DNA of 64,000 bases, taken from positions 248,001-312,000 of IMG/VR virus record IMGVR_UViG_3300009703_004110; one strand, written 5' to 3'. The notes beneath the pieces are model-generated. The model had not been told where the DNA came from, made no database searches, and was given only the letters and a program-made list of their open reading frames with translations. The position numbers were made by a program, and so were the translations under genes. The stretch comes from a virus. This document shows positions 1,437 to 63,116 of this stretch, piece after piece; within the stretch, counting starts at the first letter, position 1, and every line of letters starts with the position of its first letter.

Positions 1437-2155
1437 AACAAGTCCAGAAAGTATACCATTTCCTCTGTAATATTTGCCGGCAGGTGCGGCTCTATATCGT
1501 AATAGGTTTGGCCGAAATAACATACCGATCTAGGAGTGCTAAGCATCCAGCTCGTCTTTATAGATTCTCGTAATATATCTATTCGAACAAGGCTCCCGTC
1601 AGATAGTGGCGCTATCCAACTAGAACCAGAGCCGTTATATGATTGAAAGCCTATCTTTTTTAAAACCCTTAAGAAAATAACTATAGCTACCGGCTCTACC
1701 ATAAGCTGCACACCTAATAGCTTCTTAGGCAGCGAACCTGCTTGAATAATCTTGCTAAAACCAACCTCTGCAGTTTTTGAAATACCGGCGTCTCTCGGAT
1801 GAACGCCCAAAACTCTTTCCATGTAATCACACATCACATAAAAATGTCTTGCTTCATCATGGACCTGAGAAGTTGCCGCCATTTTGGCATCAAAGTCATC
1901 TAACTCAAAAGCTAAACTTCCAGAGGTCTGCCACGCAGCAAACTCTCCCCATAAAATGAGAGATAAAACTTTTGCTAAAGCTATTTTAACTTCCGGCTCT
2001 AAGGATGGTATGCCATGCTTTTCGATTAGATCATCTAAAACCTGCTTTCCGTCCCAACCATTTCTGTGACCCTTGTGATAGACCGTAGATAAATTTCTAT
2101 AATCATTACTGGAGTTATAGTCATCTACAAATCTATAGTCTATCATAATTTTCAC
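1433..2155 (-). CDS. ferritin-like domain fused to the LxxLxF-tail domain
   Basis: This is a protein of 240 residues. Roughly residues 40-165 look like a four-helix ferritin-like domain: WGEFAAWQTSGSL, HDEARHFYVM, then LLGVQLMVEPVAI supply Glu/His positions of diiron type. From about residue 170 (IGFQSYNGSGSSW) to the end (LPANITEEMVYFLDLL) it matches the small tail family, for example the gene at 1161-1436. Its ATG overlaps the stop of glutamine synthetase. A diiron oxidase or ferritin-like role is inferred from the helices; no substrate can be named. Confidence 0.65.
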   Translation of the reverse strand: MKIMIDYRFVDDYNSSNDYRNLSTVYHKGHRNGWDGKQVLDDLIEKHGIPSLEPEVKIALAKVLSLILWGEFAAWQTSGSLAFELDDFDAKMAATSQVHDEARHFYVMCDYMERVLGVHPRDAGISKTAEVGFSKIIQAGSLPKKLLGVQLMVEPVAIVIFLRVLKKIGFQSYNGSGSSWIAPLSDGSLVRIDILRESIKTSWMLSTPRSVCYFGQTYYDIEPHLPANITEEMVYFLDLL

Positions 2156-3177
2156 TCTTCTAATATAACCGTTGTTATCATAGCTGTCATGATTCGATAT
2201 GGGTCCGCATTAGCTCCGGGCCTACGATCTTCAAGATACCCTCTTCCGGCCTCAGAAACATTCCATGGGATTCTTACCGAAGCACTACGATCAGAAACTC
2301 CCCAAGAAAAATTATCATACTTGGCAGTTTCATGATCACCAGTTAAGCGATTTTCATATCCGTCGCCATATGCCTCTAAGTGCCTGTCTATTTGTTCGCC
2401 CAACAGTACGCACCCACGCTCTATTGCTTCCATTCCACCAGCAGACCTCATAGCGTGCGTACTAAAGTTGGTATGCATACCACTTCCATTCCAGTTGCCA
2501 TCAACTGGTTTTTGCTCTAATGAAATATAGTATCCGCTCTCTGTTTGTCTATGCAAAAGATATCGAGATACCCACAGATCATCACACGCCTTTAGAGCGC
2601 CGACCTTAACTCCGCCAATTTGATATTCCCACTGGCCTGGAGCAACTTCAGCATTAATTCCGCAAAGGGAGATTCCCGCATCAAGACACTGTTCTGCATG
2701 AGCATCAACTAACGCTCGTCCATGCGCGTTAGTGCCGCCAACACTACAGTAGTATGGTCCCTGAGGCTCTGGCTCCCCATCCGTATAAGGAAATCCCAAA
2801 GGACGCTTGTCACCTTCTCGCATAATAAAGTATTCTTGCTCAAAACCAACCCTTGGTAATGAAGCCTCTACTTCTTCTAAGACTGCAAGTTTTGATAATG
2901 CATTGCGAGTATTAGACTTATGCGGTGTACCGTCAACATTGAAAACTTCACACATAACAAGATAGCCATTCGTGTATCTGCTGTCTTTATACTGTCTTAC
3001 TGGTCTGAGAATAATGTCGGTGATCTCACCTGGGCCGGCCTTCGCCTGACCGGTTGAAGAACCATCCGCAATCCACTCTTCTTCCATTCCTTTCTTAGAC
3101 AGTAAAAATTTTGTTTTACCTCTAAGCTGGGCGGTTGGCTTTGACCCGTCCAACCAAATATATTCACAACGTATCAT
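2152..3177 (-). CDS. glnII: glutamine synthetase, GSII (eukaryotic) type
   Basis: Makes glutamine from glutamate, ammonia and ATP. At 341 residues it has the length of GSII, not bacterial GSI (about 470). Visible motifs in order: ADGSSTGQA (about 38-46), GFEQEYF (metal ligands), GINAEVAPGQWEYQ, NGSGMHTNFST, KYDNFSWGVSDR and EDRRPGANADPY. All are hallmarks of the GSII beta-grasp and catalytic domains, and the active-site residues look intact. It heads a run of overlapping genes (stop overlaps the ferritin-like gene). A viral GSII is unusual; horizontal transfer is likely. Confidence 0.93.
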   Translation of the reverse strand: MIRCEYIWLDGSKPTAQLRGKTKFLLSKKGMEEEWIADGSSTGQAKAGPGEITDIILRPVRQYKDSRYTNGYLVMCEVFNVDGTPHKSNTRNALSKLAVLEEVEASLPRVGFEQEYFIMREGDKRPLGFPYTDGEPEPQGPYYCSVGGTNAHGRALVDAHAEQCLDAGISLCGINAEVAPGQWEYQIGGVKVGALKACDDLWVSRYLLHRQTESGYYISLEQKPVDGNWNGSGMHTNFSTHAMRSAGGMEAIERGCVLLGEQIDRHLEAYGDGYENRLTGDHETAKYDNFSWGVSDRSASVRIPWNVSEAGRGYLEDRRPGANADPYRIMTAMITTVILEE

Positions 3178-10800: not shown

Positions 10801-10892
10801 TGGTACACCCGGTAGGATTCGAACCTACGATGAAGGATCTCTCCTTGCCTGGTTAAGAGCCAGGGGCGATCGGCCTCTCCGCTCACGAGTGC
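10801..10892 (-). tRNA. class II tRNA with CTT anticodon
   Basis: This tRNA is 92 bases: acceptor GCACTCG/CGGGTGT, discriminator A, encoded CCA. The anticodon arm is CCTGG-CTCTTAA-CCAGG, so positions 34-36 read CTT (Lys codon AAG). The variable region contains a real extra stem, AAGGA-GAGA-TCCTT, which in bacteria belongs to Ser, Leu and Tyr tRNAs and not to Lys. The tRNA structure is well supported; the amino acid it carries is not clear. Confidence 0.8.
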
Positions 10893-10899
10893 ATATAAT

Positions 10900-11967: not shown

Positions 11968-12053
11968 TGGTGAGGCGTGATGGAGTCGAACCACCCGAGT
12001 CAAAAGACATCTGGTTTACAGCCAGAACCGCTACCCCTACGGTTTAACACCTC
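11968..12053 (-). tRNA. tRNA-Tyr (GTA)
   Basis: Class II cloverleaf: acceptor GAGGTGT/ACGCCTC, anticodon arm TCTGG-CTGTAAA-CCAGA (GTA), extra arm in the variable region, T-loop TTCGACT, discriminator A and encoded CCA. Confidence 0.9.
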
Positions 12054-14277: not shown

Positions 14278-15504
14278 TTAAAACTGCTCTTCTTCTGTTG
14301 AATTCCCCATTGCAAGTGTAGACGATTTGTTATTAGATATAATGCTTTTAACTGTGTCAAAATAATAAGTTCCTACTTCTCGCTGATGCTTAGTGGCCGT
14401 ATAACCTCTTGCTTCTGCTGCAAACTCACGCTCTTGAAGATCTACATATCCGGTCATAGCTTTTTCATTATAGTCAGATGCCAATTCAAACATTGAAAGG
14501 TTTAAAGAATGGAATCCGGCCAAAGTAACAAACTGAAACTTATAACCCATTGAGTTTAACTCTTGACGATACTTAGCAATAGTTTCATCATCGATATTCT
14601 TCTTCCAATTAAAAGATGGTGAGCAATTATATGCCAATATTTTTCCTGGAAATTTTTCATGTATTGCATTGGCAAATCGCCTTGCTTCTTCTAAATCTGG
14701 TGTAGATGTTTCACACCAGATTAAATCACAATATGGCGCATATGCTAAGCCTCTTGATATAGCCTGTTCAATTCCGCCAGAGATTCTATAGAACCCTTCT
14801 GGTGTTCTTTCTCCTGTCATATAAGGATGATCATAAGGATCTATATCTGTCGTAATTAACCGAGCACTGTCAGCATCTGTTCTGGCAATAAGAATAGTTG
14901 GTACATCCATAACATCTGCTGCCAATCTGGCGGCCTTTAATGTCATAATAAAATGAGAAGTTGGAATTAAGACCTTTCCACCTAGGTGGCCACACTTCTT
15001 TTCTGAAGATAACTGATCTTCAAAGTGGACACCAGAGGCTCCAGCCTCTATCATCCCTTTCATAAGCTCAAATGCATTTAACGGGCCTCCAAAGCCCGCT
15101 TCGGCGTCTGCTATAATTGGAACCATCCAGTCTCGACTAAAGTGTCCTTCTGCGCTCTCGATTTGATCAGCGCGTTGCAAAGCTCTATTTATTCGCTTTA
15201 CCACATGTGGAACACTATCTGCTGGATACAAACTCTGATCGGGATACATATGACCAGATAAATTGGCGTCAGCAGCAACCTGCCATCCAGAAAGATATAT
15301 AGCTGGTAAGCCGGCTCTAACTTGCTGCATGGCCTGATTACCTGTTAGTGCACCAAGCGCATATGTTGGCTCATCAGACTGTAAAAGTTTCCATAACTTT
15401 TCTGAGCCAGTCCTCGCTAACGAGTGTTCTATTTTAAAGTTACCTCTCAACCTGTCTACGTCTTCTATAGTCCAATCCCGTTGAACTCCGTCCCATCGAT
15501 CCAT
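14278..15504 (-). CDS. aceA: isocitrate lyase
   Basis: Splits isocitrate into succinate and glyoxylate. This 408-residue protein has the active-site motif [14 protein letters not shown] with the catalytic Cys near 171, plus [39 protein letters not shown] and YNCSPSFNW. All are conserved in bacterial short-form AceA. The end shows no truncation of catalytic parts. It starts 13 bases after malate synthase, giving the same aceB-aceA order as bacterial operons. No kinase/phosphatase (aceK) is seen. Confidence 0.95.
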
Positions 15505-15517
15505 TGCAAAATCTTCC

Positions 15518-17065
15518 TTATCGAACTCCTACCAGTATGTCATAAGCCGACGTGGTTAAAAATTCATCTGCGTCTGCCTGTAAACACAGCTCTTTAAATA
15601 GCTTTTTCGCATCATCATCTTCTGCAACAGATTCTAGAATACTTACTACAAGTTCTGGTGATACAGGCTCTCCAGTGTCTAGAATAGCATTATGTCGCAA
15701 CCACTGCCATACTTGAATGCGTGATATTTCAGCAGTTGCAGCGTCTTCCATTAAATTATTAAGCGGAACACACCCAGAGCCTGAAAGCCAGGCTTTTATA
15801 TATTTATAACCAATTTTAATATTCTTTTCAAGCATTCTTCTTGTACATACACCAACAGGAAACGTCATTAGATCCTGCTCGGAAATGACTCGATTCATAT
15901 TTTTAGAAGTCGATATTTGATTCGGCTGAGGCATATGTTCATCAAAAATATTACGAGCAATCTTAACCAAACCAGGGTGAGCTACCCATGTTCCATCATG
16001 CCCATCTAATACTTCACGTTCTTTATCAATACGGACCTTAATCATTGCTGCTTTATTTGCAGACTTATTATCTTTGATTGGGATCTGCGCAGCCATTCCA
16101 CCCATCGCATGAGCGCCCCTCTTATGACATGTCTGAATAAGAAGTCTGGCATATGAGCGCATAAAGTGATCACTCATTCCTATGTCGTCACGATCAGGAA
16201 ATGGTTCATACGCTCCTAATCTGGTATTCTTTTCTACACTTTTAATTGTACTAAATATATAATCCCAGCGTCCACAGTTTAAACCAACAGAATGATTTCG
16301 CAAAGCGTAAAGAATTTCATGCATTTGGAATGCCGCTGGCAATGTTTCAATTAAAACCGTCGCCCTTATCGACCCATTTGGAATATTAAAGTAATTTTCT
16401 GATCTTGAAAAAATATCATTCCAAAGTTCCGCTTCTCTATAGTGCTCTAATTTTGGCAAATAGAAATAGGGCCTAGTTCCATTGCTTATAAGTTTACTAA
16501 AGTTGTTAGCAAAGTATACTCCAAAATCAAATAATGATGCCGGAACATAATCGGTAAGACCTGTGTCACTATTTGTGAATGTGACGTGCTTTTCTTTTAG
16601 ATGTAATCCGCGAGGTCTTACAAAAAGCGTGGCGGTCTTTTTCTTTAACTTATAAGACCTGCCTTTTGCGTTTTTAAAAGATATCTTTTTATCTACGGCA
16701 TCTTTCAAATTAACTTGACCATTAATACAATTGATCCATGTTGGAGCGTTTGAATCTTCAAAATCAGACATATAAACTTGTGCGCCTGAGTTTAGCGCAT
16801 TAATAACCATCTTCCTAGAAGGAGGGCCGGTAATCTCTACGCGTCTATCAAGTATATCTTCTGGCACATCAGCTACGGTCCAATCAGATTCACGTATTGA
16901 AGCTGTCGAAGCGTCGAAACCACTTATAATAGAGTTTCGACGCTTCGCCATACATTGCTCAATTCTTTCGGTAAATATAATACACAGAAACTTAAGAAAG
17001 TCTGATACTTCGGGCGACAAAACTTTTGCCTGCTCATCTGTTATAACTTCACTAAATTTCAGCAT
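15518..17065 (-). CDS. aceB: malate synthase A
   Basis: Condenses glyoxylate and acetyl-CoA to malate. The 515 residues match the A isoform (about 530). Visible: [40 protein letters not shown], the family signature [24 protein letters not shown], and the C-terminal [18 protein letters not shown] with catalytic Asp candidates. SD AGAGGTAG precedes the ATG. With aceA it completes the glyoxylate bypass, which lets cells use acetate or fatty acids without carbon loss. Confidence 0.95.
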
Positions 17066-17133: not shown

Positions 17134-18501
17134 TTAGAACTCAAGTGACCCAGGAGACCGTGGATATGGAATTGTATCTCTAATGTTTGAGACACCAGTA
17201 ACAAATTGTACTGCTCGTTCAAATCCAAGACCAAAGCCAGAGTGCGGAACAGAACCATATCGGCGTAAATCAAGATACCACCAATATTCTTTTGGGTCTA
17301 ATCCAGCAGCTTCCATTCTTTCTACTAACACATTATAGCGATCTTCTCTTTGGCTTCCACCAACAAGTTCACCGACCTCAGGAATAAGAAGGTCCATCGC
17401 TGCAACGGTTTTTTGGTCGTCGTTCAGATACATATAAAAAGCTTTAATATCCCTTGGATAATCTCTGACCACAACCGGGCCACCAATTACCTTGGTCAAA
17501 TGCTTTTCATGTTCTGATTGTAAATCAATTCCCCAAGAAACAGGAAACTGGAAGTCAACAGAAGCGCTCTTTAATATCTCAATAGCGTCGGTATAAGATA
17601 TAATTGGAATATCCCCAAAAACAATCTTCCGAAGTCTTGAGGCTAATGGCTTGCCACTGACATCTGATAGGTACGCCAATTCGTCTTTGCACTCCTTAAG
17701 AGCTTTTGCAAAAATAAACTGGATATAATCAGACGCCAGATGAGCAATGTCATCTATCTCGGCGAAAGCTACCTCGGGCTCAATCATCCAGAATTCAGAA
17801 AGATGCCTTGAAGTGTTGCTCTTTTCCGCTCTAAAGGTAGGACCAAAGGTATAAACCTTAGACATAGACATTGCATATGGCTCAACACTAAGTTGACCAG
17901 ATACAGTTAAGGCCGCCTCTTTGCCAAAGAACTCCTGTGCTCCTTGAATAGAAAACATTTCTCCTGCGCCTTCACAGTCACTATCTGTAATGATAGGTGT
18001 ATGAATCCAAAAGAAGCCTCGCTCATGAAAAAATTCATGAGTTGCCATAGCTAAGACGTGCCTTACTCTCATAACAGAAGAAAACATCATGCTTCTAGGT
18101 CTTAGATGCGCGTGCTCTCTTAAGTATTCTGGTGAGTGATCCTTAGGCTGTATAGGATAGGTTAAAGGATCTTCAACCCAGCCAACAACCTTAACGGAAC
18201 TGGCCTTAACTTCGTAATCCTGTCCTCTACCTTGGGACTCAATAAAAGTACCTATGACTTCAATTGAGCAGCCAGAAGTTAATTTAAGAACCCCTGACTC
18301 ATAACCTTCAACAGATTTAGGGACTACTACTTGAAATGGCTTGAAACAGCTTCCGTCATAAACGTGAATAAATGACAGACCTGCTTTAGAATCGCGCTTT
18401 GTTTTGACCCAACCACGGACCATAACTTCGGTACCAAATGGCACCGGCGCTTCGTGTAATGCTTTCACGCCATAGTGGCGTGAATCTTTTAATGTGGACA
18501 T
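17134..18501 (-). CDS. asnS: asparaginyl-tRNA synthetase
   Basis: Class II enzyme of 455 residues. The N-terminal OB fold (VMVRGWVKTKRDSK) binds the anticodon. The catalytic core shows HLRPRSMMFSSVMRVR (motif 1 region), FRAEKSNTSRHLSEFWMIEPE (motif 2) and GFGLGFERAVQF (motif 3). Insertion patterns fit AsnRS rather than AspRS. Its ATG directly joins the upstream gene's stop. No tRNA-Asn is visible in this window, so it may act on host tRNA or on one encoded elsewhere. Confidence 0.93.
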   Translation of the reverse strand: MSTLKDSRHYGVKALHEAPVPFGTEVMVRGWVKTKRDSKAGLSFIHVYDGSCFKPFQVVVPKSVEGYESGVLKLTSGCSIEVIGTFIESQGRGQDYEVKASSVKVVGWVEDPLTYPIQPKDHSPEYLREHAHLRPRSMMFSSVMRVRHVLAMATHEFFHERGFFWIHTPIITDSDCEGAGEMFSIQGAQEFFGKEAALTVSGQLSVEPYAMSMSKVYTFGPTFRAEKSNTSRHLSEFWMIEPEVAFAEIDDIAHLASDYIQFIFAKALKECKDELAYLSDVSGKPLASRLRKIVFGDIPIISYTDAIEILKSASVDFQFPVSWGIDLQSEHEKHLTKVIGGPVVVRDYPRDIKAFYMYLNDDQKTVAAMDLLIPEVGELVGGSQREDRYNVLVERMEAAGLDPKEYWWYLDLRRYGSVPHSGFGLGFERAVQFVTGVSNIRDTIPYPRSPGSLEF

Positions 18502-21039: not shown

Positions 21040-23724
21040 TTACCCATCCAAAGTTGAAAGACAACGCTTGCATGTTCCATCCGAAAGATCAGAGTATCTC
21101 CAGCACTTGTCACACTTCTCACCTTGATGCCTGCCTACCTTTACTGAGAACTCATGCGAAGCTCCGCCCCAAACATTGATACCCGAAACAATAAAAGCTT
21201 CTGTTAAATCTACATGCTTGGAATAAACAGCTTTTTCGATTTCGCAAGGAGGATCGTTAACCGGAAGGTATAGTGTTACATCCGCCTCTAGAGACTTATT
21301 AAGAACTCCATTAGCTCGTGCCTTTTCAACTTCTTTATTAACAACTTCTCTCATTTCAAAGATTGCATTCCACCTTGGCACAAGTGCCGCATCAAGGTGA
21401 GTATCTTCAGCCTCAGCCCATCCCGCCTGGAACACAGAGTCCCCAAGAAACATCGAACCAAACGTATCCATTTCTGCCCAAACTTCTTCAGATAGATACG
21501 AACATACTGGCGCGATCATTCTAACCATATCCTGTAGGTAATAACAAAATACAGTCTGGACAGATCTACGCGCTACACTATCTGATCTTTCGACATACAA
21601 CCTGTCTTTTGTGATATCCAGATAGAAGGCAGATAGTTTTTGGCGAATAAAATCCATAAGATCACGGTATGCACCATAGAAGTCATATTCGTCATAAGCC
21701 TGGTTAAAGCGTACTTTCAACTCTTCCAACTCATGAAGCATATATCTATCAACTTCATGCATATCTTCTAATGCAACGGAATCTGTTTCGAAATTGAAAT
21801 CGGATAAGTTACCAAGAAAGAACCTGAATGTATTACGAAGTCTTCTATAATTTTCATTAACCTGATTTAGAATTTCATCAGAGATTCTTACGTCAGTTTT
21901 GTAATCTACAGATACTGTCCATAATCTAAGTACGTCTTTATTGTACCTGCTAACAACATCGTCTGGAGAGACCACATTCCCAAGAGACTTACTCATCTTA
22001 CGACCCTTACCATCAACAACAAATCCATGAGTTACAACGGCCTTGTATGGAAGCTCACTATCGCTTGCTACCGCAGTTAGTAAGGAGGTTTGGAACCAGC
22101 CACGATATTGATCGTGACCTTCTAGATATAAGTCTGCATTTGATTTGCCAACTGCTCGGTGTGATACACCAGAGTCGAACCAAACGTCCATGATATCCGT
22201 CTCTTTTTTGAGTGAATCTACAAGTGGGTTACCACGTAGATCATACTCTAAACCAAGGGATAATCTTTCTCCAAGTAATTCTCTTGGTGACCAAGTAAAC
22301 CATACCTCTGTGCCATACTCTTCAAATACTTCGAGCAATCGCGCAAAGATTCTTTGATTATAAAGAGGCTGACCATCGTGATAAAAGACAGGGATTGGTA
22401 CGCCCCAAGCTCTTTGTCGAGAGATACACCAGTCCGGTCTACCAAGAATCATCCCGATCATCTTATCTCTGCCATGGGGCGGATAAAATTCAACTTCTTT
22501 AAGCGAAGCCAATGCCATCACTTCTAAAGTATCTTCTACCTTAACAAACCACTGATTGGTAACTCGAAAAACGATTGGCTTCTTCGTTCTCCAATCATGT
22601 GGATATGAGTGAGTAAAGTCTTCTTCATAGAGGACCGCATTTAGAGACGCACGCACGCGCTTGTCTGCCTTCATATAGAAGTCGCCAGCATATACTCCGG
22701 CGAGATCATTATAGTGACCTCTTTCATCTAAGATGCAATCACTTCCTAATCCGTGTTCTTGTCCGATCCAATAGTCATCTTCACCGTGTCCGGGAGCGAT
22801 ATGAACCAATCCGGTCCCCATTGAGTCGGTAACATGATGCCCAACTACAACAGGACATAGTTCGTTAGAGAATGGATGATAGTATTCTAAGCCTTCAAAG
22901 TCAGTAAATGGCTTTGTACGATAAGAATCTATTTCAAGCTTATCTACAAACTCTGTATAAAGGGCCCTCGCCAATACGTAACTTCTTCCATCATCCAATG
23001 TAAGCAATACGTATGGAACGTCTTTGCCATAAGCAACCGCTCTATTGGCCGGAAGAGTCCATGGTGTTGTAGTCCAGATTACCAGCTTAACTCTTGCAGT
23101 AGTTTCCAACTCGACATAAACCGCCTTAGCGGTCACGTCCTTATATTCAAGCTCTGCTTCAGCTAATGCCGTTTCAGAAGATGGCGACCAATAAACAGGA
23201 CGCTTACCTCTGTAAACATATCCGTTACGAAACATTTCATTAAAAACTCTAAGCTGCTCTCGCTTATATTCTTCATCTAATGTTTCGTATCTATGATCCC
23301 AATCAGCATGGATACCTAAGCTTTGAAACTGACGCTCTTGTTCGTCAACCCACTTACGAGCATACTTCCGGCAAGCAGCACGGACACTACTTCCGCTACT
23401 ATCTGTGGCCTCTTCCGATGCCTTTAGTTCGATTGGAAGTCCGTGAGTATCCCACCCAGGAACAAACGGTGCATTATAACCCTGCATTCTCTTTCGCTTT
23501 AAGATTGCGTCCTTAAGAACCTTATTTAAAGCGTGGCCGATATGGATATTTCCATTGGCATATGGAGGGCCGTCATGTAGGATAAATGACTCCCCGTCTT
23601 TGTTTAATGAGAGATCATAAACTTCTTGTTCGCCCCATAACTCTTCGGTATCAGAAAAGCTCTGATCGCTTGGACGCATCCCAAAGTCTGTCTTAGGAAG
23701 ATTTAGTTTGTGCTTCTTTGACAT
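21040..23724 (-). CDS. ileS: isoleucyl-tRNA synthetase
   Basis: Class I enzyme of 894 residues, somewhat shorter than E. coli IleS (about 940). The HIGH box GNIHIGHALNK is near residue 60, the editing domain contains WTTTPWTLPANRA and HIAPGHGEDDY, followed by PDWCISRQRAWGVPIP and KMSKSLGNVV. The anticodon domain is followed by a C-terminal zinc finger CDKCWR...CKRCL. All catalytic elements look intact. Two tRNA-Ile(GAT) genes at 61 kb are possible partners. Its start overlaps the end of 23693-24244. Confidence 0.95.
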   Translation of the reverse strand: MSKKHKLNLPKTDFGMRPSDQSFSDTEELWGEQEVYDLSLNKDGESFILHDGPPYANGNIHIGHALNKVLKDAILKRKRMQGYNAPFVPGWDTHGLPIELKASEEATDSSGSSVRAACRKYARKWVDEQERQFQSLGIHADWDHRYETLDEEYKREQLRVFNEMFRNGYVYRGKRPVYWSPSSETALAEAELEYKDVTAKAVYVELETTARVKLVIWTTTPWTLPANRAVAYGKDVPYVLLTLDDGRSYVLARALYTEFVDKLEIDSYRTKPFTDFEGLEYYHPFSNELCPVVVGHHVTDSMGTGLVHIAPGHGEDDYWIGQEHGLGSDCILDERGHYNDLAGVYAGDFYMKADKRVRASLNAVLYEEDFTHSYPHDWRTKKPIVFRVTNQWFVKVEDTLEVMALASLKEVEFYPPHGRDKMIGMILGRPDWCISRQRAWGVPIPVFYHDGQPLYNQRIFARLLEVFEEYGTEVWFTWSPRELLGERLSLGLEYDLRGNPLVDSLKKETDIMDVWFDSGVSHRAVGKSNADLYLEGHDQYRGWFQTSLLTAVASDSELPYKAVVTHGFVVDGKGRKMSKSLGNVVSPDDVVSRYNKDVLRLWTVSVDYKTDVRISDEILNQVNENYRRLRNTFRFFLGNLSDFNFETDSVALEDMHEVDRYMLHELEELKVRFNQAYDEYDFYGAYRDLMDFIRQKLSAFYLDITKDRLYVERSDSVARRSVQTVFCYYLQDMVRMIAPVCSYLSEEVWAEMDTFGSMFLGDSVFQAGWAEAEDTHLDAALVPRWNAIFEMREVVNKEVEKARANGVLNKSLEADVTLYLPVNDPPCEIEKAVYSKHVDLTEAFIVSGINVWGGASHEFSVKVGRHQGEKCDKCWRYSDLSDGTCKRCLSTLDG

Positions 23725-24841: not shown

Positions 24842-26020
24842 TTACTCTACAATACTGGTAACGTAACCGGCGCCGACAGTCTTGCCTCCCTCACGAATGG
24901 CAAAACGCATCTGCTCTTCCATACCAACAGGCTTCTGTAGACGGAAAGTAATATCCGCACGATCACCTGGGTTTACGATACCCACCTCTCCTACATCAAT
25001 AGTACCAGTTACATCAGTAGTTCCGAAGAAAAACTGAGGACTGTAACCAGTTCCGAATGGACGGTGACGGCCGCCCTCGTCCTTAGTAAGAACAAGAACG
25101 TGAGCAGTTGCCTCAATGTGAGGAACAATAGCACCAGGAGCAGTAATTACCTGACCTCTCTGGACGCCATCACGCTTCACACCACGAAGTAATAGACCAA
25201 CGTTCATACCAGCTACTGCTGCATCAACATCCTTGTGGAAAGCCTGAGTACCAGTTACCACAGTGTCTTCGCCTTCGCTGTCAAGACCAACGATCTCAAC
25301 CTTATCACCAACCCGTAGGGTTCCTCTTTCTACCTTGCCAGTAACTACGGTTCCACGACCCTTGATGTTAAATACATCTTCAATAGGCATCATGAAAGGA
25401 GAGTCATAGTCACGAGTAGGCTCAGGAATAGCATCCAAAGCTGTTACCAACTCTGTAATACAATTCAAAGCCTCGGCCTCGGCGTCTCCGGCGAGTGCGG
25501 CATTAAGAGCTTGTAGAGCGCTACCAAAGATAAAGGCCACATTGGTGTAACCATTGGACTCCAGTTGCTCTTCCACTTCCATCTCAACTAACTCAAGTAA
25601 CTCAGGATCAGCTACGTCACACTTGTTAACGAAAACAACCATGTGCTCAACGCCGACCTGACGAGCCAATAGAATGTGCTCAACGGTCTGCTTCTGTGGT
25701 CCTTGAGAACCATCGACAAGCAAGATTGCTCCATCCATCTGAGACGCGCCAGTAATCATGTTCTTGATATAGTCAGCGTGACCCGGACAGTCAATGTGTG
25801 CATAGTGACGAGTGTCACTCTCGTATTCTACGTGAGAGGTATTAATGGTAATACCACGCTCCCTCTCTTCTTTGGCATTGTCAATCTCATCAAAAGACTT
25901 AGCCTTGCTTCCCTGCAATACTGCCTGTACCTGAGTAATAGCAGCAGTTAGAGTAGTCTTACCATGATCAACGTGGCCGATGGTTCCTACATTTATATGG
26001 CACTTAGATTCTGTACTCAT
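24842..26020 (-). CDS. tuf: elongation factor Tu
   Basis: Delivers aminoacyl-tRNA to the ribosome. From ATG 26020 ([15 protein letters not shown]) it has 392 residues, full length. Visible are G1 GHVDHGKT, G2 RGITI, G3 DCPGHADY, G4 NKCD and G5 SAL, with domains 2 and 3 intact ([40 protein letters not shown]). Its ATG overlaps the TGA of an HNH endonuclease (ATGA) and its SD (AGAGGG) lies in that gene, so expression is coupled to it. A viral EF-Tu is rare. Confidence 0.95.
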
Positions 26021-26586
26021 TTTATTTTCCCTCTTTCTATTGTTGTATATGAAATAATTTTTTTCATATGTTGAATCCACTCATCAAATGAATGAGAGCG
26101 CTTCATATAGTTGCAAGTTTTGCAACATATTTTAATATTGCTTAATACATACCCAACATCATTATTGGGTCTGTCAAGCCCTATTGTATCTATTTTTGAA
26201 CCACAATATTCGCATGGTTTTTGCCACAAAGATTTAAACTCAATAAAAGATATACCAAATTTATATCCACGTCTTTCAGCTTCGTTTTTATAAATAGTGT
26301 ATTTACTGACCGGCGAATATCTGTGCCTATCTTTGCACGGTTTACAGTTGGGGTGATACCCATCCTTTCTGCTTGCTAATTTGTGATATTCAGCAATCGG
26401 TTTTTTAACATTACAATGCCCACAAACTTTTTCTGTTATAGCGGGCTTTGCCTTTGTTTTCATTTCTGATTGAATTTTCTTTACGCAGTCCTTACATCTG
26501 GCCATCACACCCAATCGGCAAGTCTTGTTTTTATAAAACTCTGAAAGCTCTTTCACCTTACTACACTTAGTACATGTTTTCGTCAT
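26017..26586 (-). CDS. HNH homing-type endonuclease
   Basis: This protein of 189 residues has two N-terminal zinc fingers ([14 protein letters not shown] and [14 protein letters not shown], the latter with CKPCKDRH) and a C-terminal HNH/zinc core [19 protein letters not shown]...[11 protein letters not shown]. Such proteins are mobile endonucleases inserted beside conserved genes. It overlaps the EF-Tu start as ATGA, and SD ATAGGAGA precedes its own ATG. The core looks intact. Confidence 0.88.
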
Positions 26587-31975: not shown

Positions 31976-32051
31976 TGGTAGCTCTGGTGGGAGTCGAACC
32001 CACACTGTAGCGGTTTTAAGCCGCTTGTCTCTGCCGTTGGACTACAGAGCC
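31976..32051 (-). tRNA. tRNA with TAA anticodon (Leu) and a short variable loop
   Basis: Acceptor GGCTCTG/CAGAGCT, D-arm GTC...GAC, anticodon arm AGCGG-CTTAAAA-CCGCT (TAA, reads UUA), variable loop only five bases, T-arm GTGGG-TTCGACT-CCCAC, A and CCA. Bacterial tRNA-Leu normally has a long variable arm, so this class I form is unusual. Confidence 0.85.
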
Positions 32052-47706: not shown

Positions 47707-49176
47707 TTAGCCGCTAGTTCTCATGGTTGGAAATAAGATTACATCCCGGATAGAGGTTCGATTTGTTAAAATCATAACCAGCCGGTCAATACCGATACCT
47801 TCGCCAGCCGTTGGTGGCATACCGAAAGTTAAAGCTCTAACGTAATCTTCATCAAAATACATTGCCTCATCATCGCCGGCATTCTTCCTCACTACCTGAG
47901 CAGCAAAGCGATCAGCTTGATCCATCGGATCATTAAGTTCGGAAAAGGCATTTGCAATTTCCATACCAGCAACAAATAACTCAAACCTATCGGTCACCCG
48001 TGGGTCGTCATCATTACGTCTAGCAAGCGGGCTGATCTCTGTTGGATAGTGAGTTACAAACGTTGGATTAATCAACTGATCTTCAATGTATGTATCAAAG
48101 ATTAATGTAAACATTTCTCCAATAGAGTCTGGTAGCTCACTCTCATAAGCTGGATTAGCTGACTGCCAAAATTCGTGCAAGTTTTGAATCGAATAAGGAT
48201 CGCCCTCAACACCAACCTTTGTTAGCAACTCATCAAACCTGGCTTCGCCCCATTGGCCGAAGTCAATTTCAGTATCACCATACGGTCTAACTAAATTACT
48301 ATAGCCAAACAAATCTCCAACCAACTCAGTAATCATATTCTGAGTCATCTTCATTAGATCACGATAAGTAGAGTGAGCCGCATAGAATTCAACAGTAGTG
48401 AATTCAGGATTGTGCTTGGTGGAAATCCCCTCATTTCTGAAATTCTTTCCAATCTCATATACACGATCTAGCCCGCCAACAATTAATCTCTTAAGATAAA
48501 GCTCTGGAGCAATTCTCATAAAGAGATCCATATCTAAAGCATTATGGTGCGTTACGAATGGCTTAGCTGACGCTCCGCCAGGAATCGGCTGTAAGGTCGG
48601 GGTCTCTACCTCTAAAAAACCTCGATCTTCTAAGTGCCGACGTACTCCGCTAACAATCTTAGATCTTGTAATAAAGACTTGCCTACTGTCATCATTGACT
48701 GCCATGTCTAAGTAACGCATTCGAGAACGTGTCTCTTGGTTAGTTAGACCGACATGCCTATCTGGCATACCCGCAATATTCTTGGAATACAAATGAATCT
48801 CTGCTACATTTACAGTCAACTCACCCATGCGCGTGCGCATCATGGTTCCAGCGAACCAGACCCAATCACCAATATCCATCGCCTTCCATTCGGCAAACTG
48901 TTCTGCACCAACAGTCTTCTTTGATACCATAATCTGAATGGCAGCATCTTGACCATTTACGCGGCCAAACCCAAGCTTACCAAGCTCATTCTTAAATCGC
49001 AATCTTCCAGCGGATGATACGGTCATATCATTCATGGCCGCAATAGAGTGCTCACTATAAGCAGTAACAATGCTCTCAACGCTGGTGTCAAATGGTATAT
49101 CATTCGGATATGGCTCGATTCCTTCTGCCCTGAGGCGTAGCGCCTTGTCTCTCATTTCTTCATTAAACTGAAACAT
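47707..49176 (-). CDS. lysS: lysyl-tRNA synthetase, class II
   Basis: 489 residues, standard bacterial LysS length. The N-terminal OB fold (AGRLRFKNELGKLGF, IQIMVSKK) is followed by catalytic motifs: TPTLQPIPGGASAKPFVTHH, LYLKRLIVGGLDRVYEIGKN, FRNEGISTKHNPEFTTVEFY (motif 2) and GEGIGIDRLVMIL (motif 3). Intact. No standard tRNA-Lys is seen here apart from the odd class II CTT tRNA at 10801. Confidence 0.95.
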   Translation of the reverse strand: MFQFNEEMRDKALRLRAEGIEPYPNDIPFDTSVESIVTAYSEHSIAAMNDMTVSSAGRLRFKNELGKLGFGRVNGQDAAIQIMVSKKTVGAEQFAEWKAMDIGDWVWFAGTMMRTRMGELTVNVAEIHLYSKNIAGMPDRHVGLTNQETRSRMRYLDMAVNDDSRQVFITRSKIVSGVRRHLEDRGFLEVETPTLQPIPGGASAKPFVTHHNALDMDLFMRIAPELYLKRLIVGGLDRVYEIGKNFRNEGISTKHNPEFTTVEFYAAHSTYRDLMKMTQNMITELVGDLFGYSNLVRPYGDTEIDFGQWGEARFDELLTKVGVEGDPYSIQNLHEFWQSANPAYESELPDSIGEMFTLIFDTYIEDQLINPTFVTHYPTEISPLARRNDDDPRVTDRFELFVAGMEIANAFSELNDPMDQADRFAAQVVRKNAGDDEAMYFDEDYVRALTFGMPPTAGEGIGIDRLVMILTNRTSIRDVILFPTMRTSG

Positions 49177-49519
49177 CTGAGGCTCCGGCGTTTAAAATAT
49201 CTTCTACTTCAACCATCATTCTGCCATAAGCATCATATGTGCCAGGCAACATCATCATGGTTTCGGCGGTAAAAAGATTATCTGCTGCACTTTCGTGAAC
49301 ACCGGACAGGTGATCCAAAGCTTCCTCTGTATCCATTCCGGTAATTGATTCAAGTAATTGTTCGTGAGCCTCTGCATATAAAGATCTGTATTCAGACGGA
49401 TCTTCCGCAGAGTCATCAACAACCTTCTGTAATGTTTGTCTAAACCTATCAAGCTTTTCTTCCGCAGTATTTCCGCGAACACGCCCTGGTCTAAAAAATT
49501 CTAATGGGTTATCCTGCAT
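49163..49519 (-). CDS. hypothetical helical protein, 118 aa
   Basis: Acidic and helical throughout (EEKLDRFRQTLQKVVDDSAED, YAEAHEQLLESITGM, EEALDHLSGVHESAA). It overlaps LysRS at its end and the deformylase at its start, so all three are co-translated. No motif. Confidence 0.7.
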   Translation of the reverse strand: MQDNPLEFFRPGRVRGNTAEEKLDRFRQTLQKVVDDSAEDPSEYRSLYAEAHEQLLESITGMDTEEALDHLSGVHESAADNLFTAETMMMLPGTYDAYGRMMVEVEDILNAGASDVSV

Positions 49520-50078
49520 TTGCTCTCTCCATAAGCCTTTTGCTAATCTTCTTCAACTTCTTATTAAAACGACTTCGTTTAAGACTGCTAGCGTGCTTAA
49601 GGAGAGTGATTCCATCTAAATGGTCAATCTCATGTTGGATAATAACTGCAACAAACCCTGTGAAAATTTCTTCTACAAAGTCGCCGGTCACTGTTTGATA
49701 TCTGACAGATACTTCATCTGGCCTTGATACTTTGACGGCCATTGAGGGCAAGGATAAGCATCCTTCTTCTGACGTGATCTCTGTTTCTGATGCTTCAAGA
49801 ATTACTGGATTGACGAGCTTTAATGCTCCTGAGGCATATCCTCCACCATAAGCTGATGCCGGAGAATAGTCTCCAACATGCCCTGTATCAATCACAATTA
49901 ATCTGCGACTATCACCAACTTGTGGCGCAGCTAATCCCACACCATTGTTGCCGTACATAGTTATCAGCATTTCAGACATATATGCGTCCAGATCATCTCC
50001 GAACTCATCTTCGGTTACATCACGAGCAACCTGATTCAAAATTGTACTGCCTGGAAATCCAGGAATTAAAATTCTCAT
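49509..50078 (-). CDS. def: peptide deformylase
   Basis: Removes the formyl group from nascent proteins. The three diagnostic motifs are intact: GNNGVGLAAPQVG, EEGCLSLP (Cys ligand) and IIQHEIDHLDG (HExxH). 189 residues with a basic C-terminal helix (LKRSRFNKKLKKISKRLM), longer than the short marine-phage deformylases. A loop YSPASAYGGGYASG is inserted before the second motif. It supports processing of phage proteins made on host ribosomes. Confidence 0.93.
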   Translation of the reverse strand: MRILIPGFPGSTILNQVARDVTEDEFGDDLDAYMSEMLITMYGNNGVGLAAPQVGDSRRLIVIDTGHVGDYSPASAYGGGYASGALKLVNPVILEASETEITSEEGCLSLPSMAVKVSRPDEVSVRYQTVTGDFVEEIFTGFVAVIIQHEIDHLDGITLLKHASSLKRSRFNKKLKKISKRLMERANAG

Positions 50079-50812: not shown

Positions 50813-52483
50813 TTACTCGTATGCATTCATGCTGCCACTTTCAATCTTGGCTGCTTCGACTTCCAACTTCTCTCGCATCAGTGGGCTTAGAATATCACAC
50901 TTAGCAGGACGCTTTGCCCAATCAGCATTAAGACGCTCACGCATTTGATCGAAGTCTTCGAAGACATAATCAACAGGTCCACAGTCCCAGATGACCTCAA
51001 GCAAGTCTGTCTCCATACGATAATCTTCCCAGCTTGTTCCTGTTGCAGGATATACCTTCAACTCAGAACCAACGGAATTAACGATGGTAAGTCCGGGCAG
51101 GCTCATCTTGCTAAGGTCACGACTCGGCTTCTTCATAACATCACGAACCGTTCCGTCCGCATACTCGATACGACAAAGCTTGGTTGCACACTTTAGTGTG
51201 TCACGGTTCTGCTTCTGTAGCAAACCACCGCCCATACCAAAGGCGACATTCTGAGCACTATAACCAGCATTCAAAACGGCACGGAGAATAGCGGCAAGGA
51301 TGCGAGCATCAATACCGTCTCCCTGGATTACAGCCGCTCCGTTAAGAACCTTGTAACCCTTGCTGTTAACTGTCACACCGAATGCTGCCTCGCAAGCTTC
51401 CAGTCCATCTAGAACACATCTAACAGGATCGCCAGAGTCAGGACGTACTACGAATAGAATTCCCTGCTTCTGCGCCAGTGGTGCAATCTGAGGAAGAATC
51501 GTCCAAAGGAACGATGCTCGATCAGGATTATTATAGTTATAAGAATCAGCAACACAGCTAAGGATTGCTCCCTCAGGAGTGATTCCAATAAGATGCTCAA
51601 CTGCGGCCATTTCCTTAGGCCAAGCTGTCATCACACTGTGCTCAGATGCAAGTACCGATTCACCAACCGGACGACCTTCGTTCCACTTAGTTGCAAGCCA
51701 ACCAGCAGTCATGGTATCAGTACCTTCAAAACTTAGAAGGTGACCGGCACCAGTAGTCATCGCAGTTTCTGCGCTCGATACTCCACGCGAACCAAAATCA
51801 TGCAAACGGCTGGGAAGCAAGAAGTCAAGCTCTGCTTCAACAGACTCATCAAATGCGGCACGAATCAGACGCCAAACATGACGGCTCTTAGTAGCAGTAA
51901 CGGACGGGCTCCACAGACGCATCAACGCAGTCTCAAGCCAAGTCACCAGATACACAAACTCATCGTCTGTTAGATTATCTGTGCTTGCCGTAATTGTAAA
52001 GCAAGGAACATTCGGATAAACCACTGTTCCATCACGTAGCGCCTTAATCTTGATGGGAATATATCCACCATTATCTACGACCTTCTGCCATAGATGCTTG
52101 GGCCAACTCATCGGAGTCTTTGCGACACCATGAGTCTTTAGATAGGTCTCTGCTTCATCTACTTCAAACTGCTCAATTCGATGAGAGATAACAGTTTCAA
52201 ATAGGTAGCGCATACCAAAGAAAACGATTCGCTCGTCCTCTGCTGTGAGTGGGCCACGGAATGTAAAGTACGCAGTCATTGACTTTGCGTCAGGATACAT
52301 CTGCCAGTGTCCAGTCTTATAAGTATCCGTGTCCAGTAGGAACGGGATACGTCGAGGGTCGCTTTTTAGAATGTCAATCTTAAGCTGTTCCATCAGATCC
52401 GCTAAGGCATCTGATCCTGCTGCGCCGTGTATCTGTAAGATATTACATTCTGCTTCTCTAATAATATCATTTATATTTCTCAT
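50813..52483 (-). CDS. nadV: nicotinamide phosphoribosyltransferase
   Basis: Makes NMN from nicotinamide and PRPP. The 556 residues include LLDTDTYKTGHWQMYPD near the start, FGMRYLFETVI, SPSVTATKSRHVWRLIRAAFD, LHDFGSRGVSSAETAMTTG and FVVRPDSGDPVRC, then GVTVNSKGYKVLNGAAVIQGDG. All are hallmark NAMPT positions. The N-terminal 40 residues add a helix (IREAECNILQIHGAAG). With the NMNAT-Nudix gene just upstream in transcription it forms a two-step NAD salvage pair, known in phages as a counter to NAD-depleting defences. Confidence 0.93.
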   Translation of the reverse strand: MRNINDIIREAECNILQIHGAAGSDALADLMEQLKIDILKSDPRRIPFLLDTDTYKTGHWQMYPDAKSMTAYFTFRGPLTAEDERIVFFGMRYLFETVISHRIEQFEVDEAETYLKTHGVAKTPMSWPKHLWQKVVDNGGYIPIKIKALRDGTVVYPNVPCFTITASTDNLTDDEFVYLVTWLETALMRLWSPSVTATKSRHVWRLIRAAFDESVEAELDFLLPSRLHDFGSRGVSSAETAMTTGAGHLLSFEGTDTMTAGWLATKWNEGRPVGESVLASEHSVMTAWPKEMAAVEHLIGITPEGAILSCVADSYNYNNPDRASFLWTILPQIAPLAQKQGILFVVRPDSGDPVRCVLDGLEACEAAFGVTVNSKGYKVLNGAAVIQGDGIDARILAAILRAVLNAGYSAQNVAFGMGGGLLQKQNRDTLKCATKLCRIEYADGTVRDVMKKPSRDLSKMSLPGLTIVNSVGSELKVYPATGTSWEDYRMETDLLEVIWDCGPVDYVFEDFDQMRERLNADWAKRPAKCDILSPLMREKLEVEAAKIESGSMNAYE

Positions 52484-55575: not shown

Positions 55576-55651
55576 TGGCACGCTGTAAGGGATTCGAACC
55601 CTTGACGCGGAGGTCTAGAATCTCCCGCTCTGACCGCTGAGCTAACAGCGC
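55576..55651 (-). tRNA. suppressor tRNA (CTA anticodon, reads UAG)
   Basis: Perfect 76-base cloverleaf: acceptor GCGCTGT/ACAGCGT, D-arm GCTCAGCGGTCAGAGC, T-arm AAGGG-TTCGAAT-CCCTT, discriminator G and encoded CCA. The anticodon arm is GGAGA-TTCTAGA-CCTCC, with one A31-C39 mismatch. Loop position 33 is T, so 34-36 read CTA. Shifting the register to read TCT (Arg) breaks the stem. Amino acid unknown. Suppressor tRNAs of this kind occur in some huge phages. Confidence 0.85.
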
Positions 55652-61931: not shown

Positions 61932-63116
61932 CTATACCTCACTTACAATATTCATTCCAAGAAAAGTCATGCCTAGTGCCAAGTCATCTAACATTGGCTG
62001 AAACAAAGCTTGTCCCTCTGGATTATTCTGAATTTTAACATCCATATAAAGTCCGTTAATTTTCTTTGCTAACTTAACCAGAGCCGTTAGTAAAGTCTTT
62101 GGATTAAGATCACTTTGTGATTTAATCAAAGCATAGATAAGCTCCGGAGACTTTAGCGCACCAGACTCTGGCTTTAGCCCGGCACTCTGTAAGCGTGCCA
62201 AAGTATAGCTCAAGTATAGGCCAGAAGATTGTTTCAGAGATTTAATCTGGTCCAAATCTAATTTCTTAGTACTCTTTGGTGAGCTATTCAAAATGAAGCC
62301 AACTAATACATTATACGCCAAATCAGGGTTTGGAAACTCGTCAATCAGTAGATCATAAACCTCTTGGGCCATGACGGTGTTGCCCTCCCTGCTTGACATC
62401 TTCTTCCCTTTAGCGATTACTAGTCCAAGCGGAACATGCGTAATTTCGCCCTCGGGAAATAGCTGTGCCAACTTCTTAAAGTGCGGGCCTTGCTCCGAAC
62501 CCGTTAGATATAACTTACTCTCACCATTCCAGGCTTGAGCTAGAGCGACGTCTTGCCAAAAATAGCTAGTACTTCCATCGCTTTTAATTCCAACAACATA
62601 CTCGTCGTCAGCTATAAAGCCTTTAGTACCTTCATACTTACCATTTCCGCTTACTAAAAGAGAATCGTCATTCAATATCATATCTGATGCAAAGAAGACT
62701 GCACCATTAATATAGTAGTCAGACCACTTAAGCCATTCTTCTAGTTTGCTTAGGGCGTCTTCTTTGGAAACATCACCATCTAATGTGTCCCCAAGGATGG
62801 CCACAAAGTCAAGGCCAATCCCCATGTTTTCAAATGCTTTGGCAATGACAAGGTTTGATAGGTGACCAATATGAAGGTGCTTATTTAGATTCGGACTAAA
62901 CCCATCAACTATCGAATAAGCCTTAGGCTCTACAAACAGATCGTGTAGACTTATACTCTCTGGAATATTAATGTTAGTAAACCTTCCAGACTTAACCAAA
63001 GTTAAGCTATGATAGTCTGCCCACTTACTGATCTCTTCTGATGGTTTGCCAAATACACATAAAGCAAAGTCCATCATCGGCGGCGTTGTAGCTACCTTTC
63101 CAATATCGATTTTCAT
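61932..63116 (-). CDS. argS: arginyl-tRNA synthetase-like protein, short form
   Basis: Class I. DGFSPNLNKHLHIGHLSNLVI corresponds to the ArgRS HIGH region, VAILGDTLDGDVSKED follows, STSYFWQDVALAQ matches the DIA region, and KGKKMSSREGNTVMAQE the KMSKS loop. At 394 residues it lacks the N-terminal Add1 domain (about 100 residues) and part of the C-terminal helical domain has drifted, compared with about 550-580 usually. tRNA specificity should be confirmed. Ends in TAG. No tRNA-Arg is seen in the window. Confidence 0.82.
   Translation of the reverse strand: MKIDIGKVATTPPMMDFALCVFGKPSEEISKWADYHSLTLVKSGRFTNINIPESISLHDLFVEPKAYSIVDGFSPNLNKHLHIGHLSNLVIAKAFENMGIGLDFVAILGDTLDGDVSKEDALSKLEEWLKWSDYYINGAVFFASDMILNDDSLLVSGNGKYEGTKGFIADDEYVVGIKSDGSTSYFWQDVALAQAWNGESKLYLTGSEQGPHFKKLAQLFPEGEITHVPLGLVIAKGKKMSSREGNTVMAQEVYDLLIDEFPNPDLAYNVLVGFILNSSPKSTKKLDLDQIKSLKQSSGLYLSYTLARLQSAGLKPESGALKSPELIYALIKSQSDLNPKTLLTALVKLAKKINGLYMDVKIQNNPEGQALFQPMLDDLALGMTFLGMNIVSEV

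Follow-up and report, generated by a model that had tools for sequence, protein, structure and literature searches.

The window analyzed here is a stretch of 64,000 nucleotides, positions 248001-312000 of a virus record of 332,270 bases. It carries a tRNA gene in which a lysine anticodon is combined with a long variable arm. This gene, its parts and the genes that bear on its interpretation are as follows.

10801..10892, minus strand: class II tRNA-Lys(CUU) gene, 92 nt with the encoded CCA (ARAGORN, Rfam RF00005, fold)
10855..10857, minus strand: anticodon CUU in the loop CUCUUAA (ARAGORN, sequence)
10829..10847, minus strand: variable region of 19 nt, C-AAGGA-GAGA-UCCUU-CAUC, with a 5-bp stem and 4 unpaired nt before the T stem (fold, parse)
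10801..10804, minus strand: discriminator A73 (10804) and encoded CCA (10801-10803) (sequence, parse)
11968-12053: tRNA-Tyr(GUA) (ARAGORN)
17134-18501: AsnRS
21040-23724: IleRS
24842-26080, minus strand: phage-encoded elongation factor Tu (TIGR00485 544.3 bits, cut-off 522.4)
47707..49176, minus strand: phage-encoded class II lysyl-tRNA synthetase (TIGR00499 585.5 bits, cut-off 427.6; 469.6 bits to E. coli LysU chain 1e1o_A)

The ARAGORN call, a tRNA-Lys(CTT) on the minus strand, spans exactly 10801-10892, and positions 10804-10892 matched Rfam RF00005 with 43.6 bits (cut-off 29, E 3.5e-07). The minimum free energy fold and the centroid fold were the same cloverleaf, including a 5-bp variable stem, AAGGA/UCCUU, with a GAGA closing loop. 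The RF00005 alignment and the parse gave an acceptor of 7 bp and a T stem of 5 bp. The fold energy was ordinary (z -1.14, with 29 of 200 shuffles equally good); the gene is therefore supported by its matches to tRNA models, by its encoded CCA and by its relatives. These results bear out the first-pass annotation, which had described a class II tRNA with a Lys anticodon. Its wording of the anticodon as “AAG” was wrong, as the anticodon is CUU and AAG is the codon read (or the letters of the plus strand).

The window tRNA shares with canonical class I bacterial tRNA-Lys a Lys anticodon, an anticodon loop of the form YU-CUU-AA, A73, and acceptor and T stems of 7 and 5 bp. The elements of lysine identity, anticodon bases U35 and U36 (CUU, 10855-10857) and discriminator A73 (10804), are present. 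In contrast, the short variable loop of 4-5 nt that characterizes canonical class I tRNA-Lys is absent, and its place is taken by a 19-nt region with a 5-bp stem; thus, the window tRNA falls outside canonical class I tRNA-Lys. This supports the earlier statement that a Lys anticodon on a class II tRNA violates the textbook rule. With the bacterial class II tRNAs for Ser, Leu and Tyr, the window tRNA shares the long variable arm, a body profile closest to Ser or Tyr, and a Tyr-like length of the joint between the variable stem and the T stem. However, the marks of each of these isotypes are missing: G73 and the usual 1-nt joint of tRNA-Ser are replaced by A73 and a 4-nt joint, U48 (A15-U48) and the usual 1-nt joint of tRNA-Leu by C48 and 4 nt, and the GUA anticodon of tRNA-Tyr by CUU. 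The A73 of tRNA-Leu does match the window tRNA, but A73 is also common to Lys. Allo-tRNAs and tRNA-Sec have an 8/4 or 9/3 branch with an acceptor stem of 8-9 bp, which is absent from the window tRNA with its 7-bp acceptor and 5-bp T stem.

The gene adjoins two tRNA-Glu genes and lies about 1.1 kb from the tRNA-Tyr gene. ARAGORN found 19 tRNAs within the window and 5 further ones outside it, and no second Lys tRNA was found in the record, where the ARAGORN search covered the window and, outside it, the surroundings of Rfam matches. Besides LysRS, the window encodes AsnRS, IleRS and EF-Tu, all above curated cut-offs. A match to the head maturation protease phrog_53 in the record supports its phage nature.

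We searched viral genomes for relatives of this tRNA. When IMG/VR was scanned with a pattern that combined a CUU anticodon and class II spacing, 107 stretches were returned, and 54 of them held a class II CUU tRNA by ARAGORN. Three further scans (class I CUU, class II UUU and class I UUU) returned at least 120 stretches each. Together, the four scans yielded at least 165 unique class II tRNA-Lys (50 with CUU and at least 115 with UUU) and at least 317 unique class I tRNA-Lys. The scan patterns fixed parts of the anticodon loop and the T loop, and class I tRNA-Lys gathered with the same motifs served as the control. Some tRNAs were lost in parsing when the anticodon or T arm was not placed (791 of 866 were parsed in the first set, and 3953 of 4267 over the four sets); the counts also exclude duplicates and any tRNA whose T stem had fewer than 4 pairs.

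Class II tRNA-Lys occurs in named phages: the Caulobacter phages CcrColossus and CcrBL9, CcrPW, CcrSC, Brevundimonas phage Gurke and Xanthomonas phage XacN1. The CUU tRNAs of CcrColossus, CcrBL9, Gurke and XacN1 carry class II arms like that of the window tRNA and are plainly annotated as tRNA-Lys, and a phiKZ tRNA with such an arm is annotated as tRNA-Asn. XacN1 encodes the 89-nt class II CUU tRNA beside a 77-nt class I UUU tRNA; phiKZ encodes an 87-nt class II tRNA-Asn plus a 76-nt class I tRNA-Asn (ARAGORN lengths). In cells, class II CUU tRNAs are rare: the corresponding pattern gave 67 stretches across 84,980 cellular species, and 6 loci were accepted. Of the remaining stretches, 15 archaeal long CUU tRNAs were excluded by eye as intron-bearing canonical tRNA-Lys, and 46 had no long CUU call. 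At five of the six loci, the contig stretch measured 5-8 kb and contained 8 to 19 tRNAs, and the sixth stretch held only 2; such dense arrays suggest mobile elements or viruses.

The first-pass annotation had named known class II tRNA-Lys relatives as evidence that would speak against its reading. Such relatives proved numerous in phages, but no description of class II tRNA-Lys in phages was found in the titles and abstract openings of open-licence papers, and the available text of a review of non-canonical tRNAs (PMC7609411) does not contain the word “phage”. Class II tRNA-Lys is a real, conserved phage variant that has gone unremarked as far as the literature search reaches.

The relatives resemble one another beyond the anticodon. 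When the anticodon was left out of the comparison, class II Lys made up 29 of the 30 tRNAs closest to the window tRNA among 3562 unique viral tRNAs (matches listed); of 60 sampled class II Lys, 58 had another class II Lys as their nearest neighbor from a different locus (matches listed). Among the 165 class II Lys listed, stem pairs were maintained with many pair types: the acceptor pairs were formed in 158-160, and pair 27-43 was formed in only 123. The variable regions of the same 165 paired over 3.48 bp on average versus 1.83 when shuffled, far above expectation, so that the 5-bp extra stem claimed by the first-pass annotation, and given by the fold of the window tRNA, is real. In a tree of tRNA bodies over 65 columns, the class II Lys label needed 15 changes, at least 3 of them forced by starred branches, against a shuffled mean of 32.8; class II Lys therefore clusters, although a single clade is not demonstrated, and it may have arisen more than once. 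The window tRNA, with its Lys anticodon, its long arm with a 4-nt joint and its nearest bodies all but one class II Lys, belongs to this recurrent phage-associated family, which includes both CUU and UUU members.

The source of the class II body was approached with isotype profiles. In a first profile test, Tyr was the call for 71 of 77 class II Lys, but independent and larger training sets divided the bodies into Ser 93, Tyr 69 and Leu 1 of 163 (matches listed), and two masks with two draws each again split the calls between Ser and Tyr with few Leu. When the anticodon arm and variable region were fully masked, no isotype was prominent in the profile test. Since the split between Ser and Tyr shifts with the training set and the mask, we go no further on the origin than “not Leu”; a Leu origin is excluded by the profiles. 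The length of the joint favors Tyr as the source of the body.

The discriminator tracks the anticodon, not the arm. Among the class II tRNAs listed, base 73 was G in 25 of 26 Asn, U in 9 of 9 Cys, G in 9 of 9 Trp and A in 130 of 165 Lys; it was A in all 157 Leu and all 113 Tyr, and G in 170 of 197 Ser. The joint told a similar story: 3-4 nt in 122 of 165 class II Lys and 70 of 113 Tyr, but in only 6 of 197 Ser and 9 of 157 Leu, while a 1-nt joint, as opposed to the 4 nt of the window tRNA, was found in 140 of 197 Ser and 110 of 157 Leu (all among the matches listed). Base 48, which is C in the window tRNA, was U in 37 of 45 class II Leu.

Some class II Lys deviate at the discriminator, since 32 of 165 have U73 (matches listed). 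These occur in Caulobacter and Brevundimonas phages, including CcrColossus and Gurke, whose tRNA-Lys differ in this respect from the window tRNA with A73, and also in contigs of Thalassospira and Pseudaminobacter genomes that encode a class I LysRS. According to the available text of PMC9976931, lysine identity for class II LysRS consists of the anticodon and A73, while A73 is marginal for class I LysRS. However, Bradyrhizobium has a class I LysRS and yet an A73 class II Lys member, and in 8 loci a class II Lys with U73 stands beside local class I Lys with A, or with A and G. The latter loci indicate that a class I LysRS explains U73 incompletely.

The meaning of AAG in this phage was examined in a decoding test, in which the phage IleRS, LysRS and malate synthase were aligned with 30, 30 and 3 cellular homologues, respectively. 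At 62 AAG sites Lys scored +74.9 bits, and the next residue, Arg, scored -24.5. The test gives the meaning of AAG in these genes, and a poorly expressed, mis-charged tRNA could evade it. The standard residue scored best for all 61 codons, and a change in the genetic code was rejected on this ground. In 14 ORFs, AAG was used at 38.8 versus 16.9 per 1000 codons for AAA; AAG is thus the preferred Lys codon of the phage, so that the phage would pay a high price for a tRNA that inserted Ser, Leu or Tyr at it.

The statement of the first-pass annotation that LysRS is phage-encoded was confirmed by the TIGR00499 match well above its cut-off, and the enzyme is of the ordinary bacterial class II type. 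It is a likely, though not obligatory, charging enzyme for the class II tRNA-Lys. We propose that LysRS, either the phage's own or the host's, would recognize the CUU anticodon and A73, would ignore or tolerate the long variable arm, and would load the class II tRNA with lysine, after which the tRNA would read AAG. Taken together, the window tRNA is very probably a working lysine tRNA on a class II body, which accepts lysine and reads AAG; its expression and its charging by LysRS are inferred.

The first-pass annotation had also suggested that the tRNA and the phage LysRS might have co-evolved, and this does not hold in general. A LysRS match was present in at least 3 of 50 viral records chosen for carrying class II tRNA-Lys (50 of the 54 class II CUU loci initially listed), 2 of them above the curated cut-off; the count of 3 is a lower bound, because many of these records are fragments. 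This frequency indicates that a phage enzyme is not generally needed for class II tRNA-Lys. The two records above the cut-off were those of loci L026 and L118, and L026 holds the nearest relative of the window tRNA (about 76% identity). The records of CcrColossus, CcrBL9, CcrPW and XacN1 gave no LysRS match.

Our analysis also revealed frequent exceptions to the class I/II rule among phage tRNAs, in both directions: Lys, Asn, Thr, Ile and other tRNAs gain an arm, and half of the phage Leu tRNAs lose theirs. In loci not selected for class II, 82 of 164 Leu tRNAs lacked the arm, compared with 1 of 127 Ser and 2 of 67 Tyr (matches listed), and A73 was retained in 150 of 153 arm-less Leu tRNAs over all scans (matches listed). 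That half of the Leu tRNAs but almost none of the Ser and Tyr tRNAs are arm-less matches the available text of PMC9976931, in which arm sequence and folding are uncorrelated with leucylation in E. coli. We also observed two Leu tRNAs without a long arm, with anticodons UAA and UAG, at 31976-32051 (minus strand) of the window and 318043-318115 (minus strand) of record G000; UUA and CUA aligned with Leu in the decoding test. In addition, phage tRNA-Ile(UAU) is often armed with 20-25 nt (loci L059, L129, L291, L311, L334, L360, L374, L383 and others). The arm motif was CAGAT in 7 of 8 inspected cases (of 25) and TAGAT in the eighth, and 19 of 33 tRNA-Ile(UAU) in unselected loci were armed (matches listed).

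The simplest view of the arm is tolerance, that is, LysRS does not read it. According to the available text of PMC11878792, human LysRS touches the variable loop via an N-terminal helix that bacterial LysRS lacks, which fits such tolerance. A wider view is that phages keep a lysine isotype of their own, a class II lineage nearly absent from cells and maintained beside class I, in which the arm gives an advantage such as resistance to tRNA-cutting defences; more broadly, the class I/II rule would be set only by the needs of SerRS and TyrRS, and phage tRNAs would cross it freely elsewhere. We put this forward tentatively and consider it rather improbable as a whole.

It is likewise unlikely, in our judgment, that the long arm is adaptive in the narrower sense of shielding the same lysine tRNA from host tRNA-Lys nucleases of the PrrC or PARIS type, and so giving the phage a cut-resistant supply. 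In its favor, PARIS AriB cleaves tRNA-Lys(UUU), tRNA-Thr(UGU) and tRNA-Asn(GUU), and the phage T5 variants of these tRNAs evade it, according to the available text of PMC12409363; the isotypes that gain an arm include Lys, Asn and Thr (165, 26 and 15 among the matches listed). The available text of PMC11555353 reports that a phage tRNA-Lys restored infection in the presence of PrrC170. Furthermore, a class I Lys is also present in 68 of 137 class II Lys loci, and both UUU forms occur in 26 loci (matches listed), which suggests a non-redundant role for the class II form. However, the AriB site U36AAUCA41 was found in 14 of 115 class II and 23 of 174 class I tRNAs with UUU, and in 12 of 50 class II and 38 of 143 class I tRNAs with CUU (matches listed); the frequencies are similar (p about 0.85), and evasion of defence through loss of the AriB site was rejected, the two classes being alike. 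The class II excess among U36 tRNAs depends on Ile(UAU) and falls to p 0.087 without it, so that an enrichment of class II in U36 isotypes was not retained. In the text available from the cited papers, the variable arm is never named as protective.

Two further explanations concern the function of the tRNA itself. The first is mis-decoding: SerRS, LeuRS or TyrRS would charge the class II body, and a wrong residue would be placed at AAG. Judging from the available text of PMC4033280, the nearest published kind to the window tRNA is the nematode nev-tRNA, which likewise combines a class II arm with the anticodon of a class I isotype, and the class II nev-tRNA-Gly(CCC) provides the precedent, since it puts leucine at a Gly codon. 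The similarity of class II Lys body profiles to Ser or Tyr bodies points in the same direction. In the phage tRNA, however, the discriminator (A73 instead of G73), C48 and the 4-nt joint, which are unlike Leu or Ser, together with codon use, indicate lysine; a Leu call was obtained for a single Lys body in the profile test; and AAG is common and aligned with Lys here, whereas the codons of nev-tRNAs are mostly rare in the same text. Mis-decoding is thus highly improbable, and the charging by SerRS or LeuRS that the first-pass annotation had considered found no support. That the gene is a non-functional relic of a tRNA-Ser or tRNA-Tyr that acquired a CUU anticodon by drift would account for the wobbles G1-U72 (the first acceptor pair) and U5-G68, the irregular D arm and an RF00005 score below the 55-56 bits of the two tRNA-Glu neighbors, but is scarcely credible given that every stem is formed and CCA encoded, that the family retains its pairs with many pair types, and that LysRS is also present in the record of the nearest relative.

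In textbooks, the variable arm separates the tRNA classes, and it is a standard clue in isotype annotation. The large phage family of armed lysine tRNAs carries a caution for phage genomes, in which “class II” need not mean Ser, Leu or Tyr. Armed Lys and arm-less Leu tRNAs of phages provide many natural tests of which synthetases inspect the arm, and the class II tRNA-Lys family offers naturally evolved scaffolds for tRNA engineering. The family also allows a direct test of whether tRNA architecture, beyond mutation of the anticodon loop, helps phages survive tRNA-cutting defences.

Several other features of the window and record were observed. All of the following protein genes lie on the minus strand of the window: adjacent isocitrate lyase and malate synthase genes at 14278-17065, constituting a viral glyoxylate shunt; a peptide deformylase at 49509-50078; a NAMPT/NAPRTase-like enzyme at 50813-52483; and two proteins below cut-off, a GlnII-like glutamine synthetase at 2152-3177 and a short ArgRS-like protein at 61932-63116. 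A tRNA with anticodon CUA at 55576-55651 (minus strand), labeled Pyl by ARAGORN, is a possible amber suppressor. At 316238-316317 (minus strand) of record G000 (locus L020), a tRNA-Gly(UCC) has a variable region of 13 nt in which a short stem is possible. The trinucleotide TAT stands immediately 5' of the mature tRNA end in 12 of the 24 tRNAs of the record, for example at 10893-10895 of the window, against a background of 2.8% of positions, and is possibly a processing or start signal. In other viral loci, TAT preceded the mature 5' end of 563 of 2684 tRNAs.
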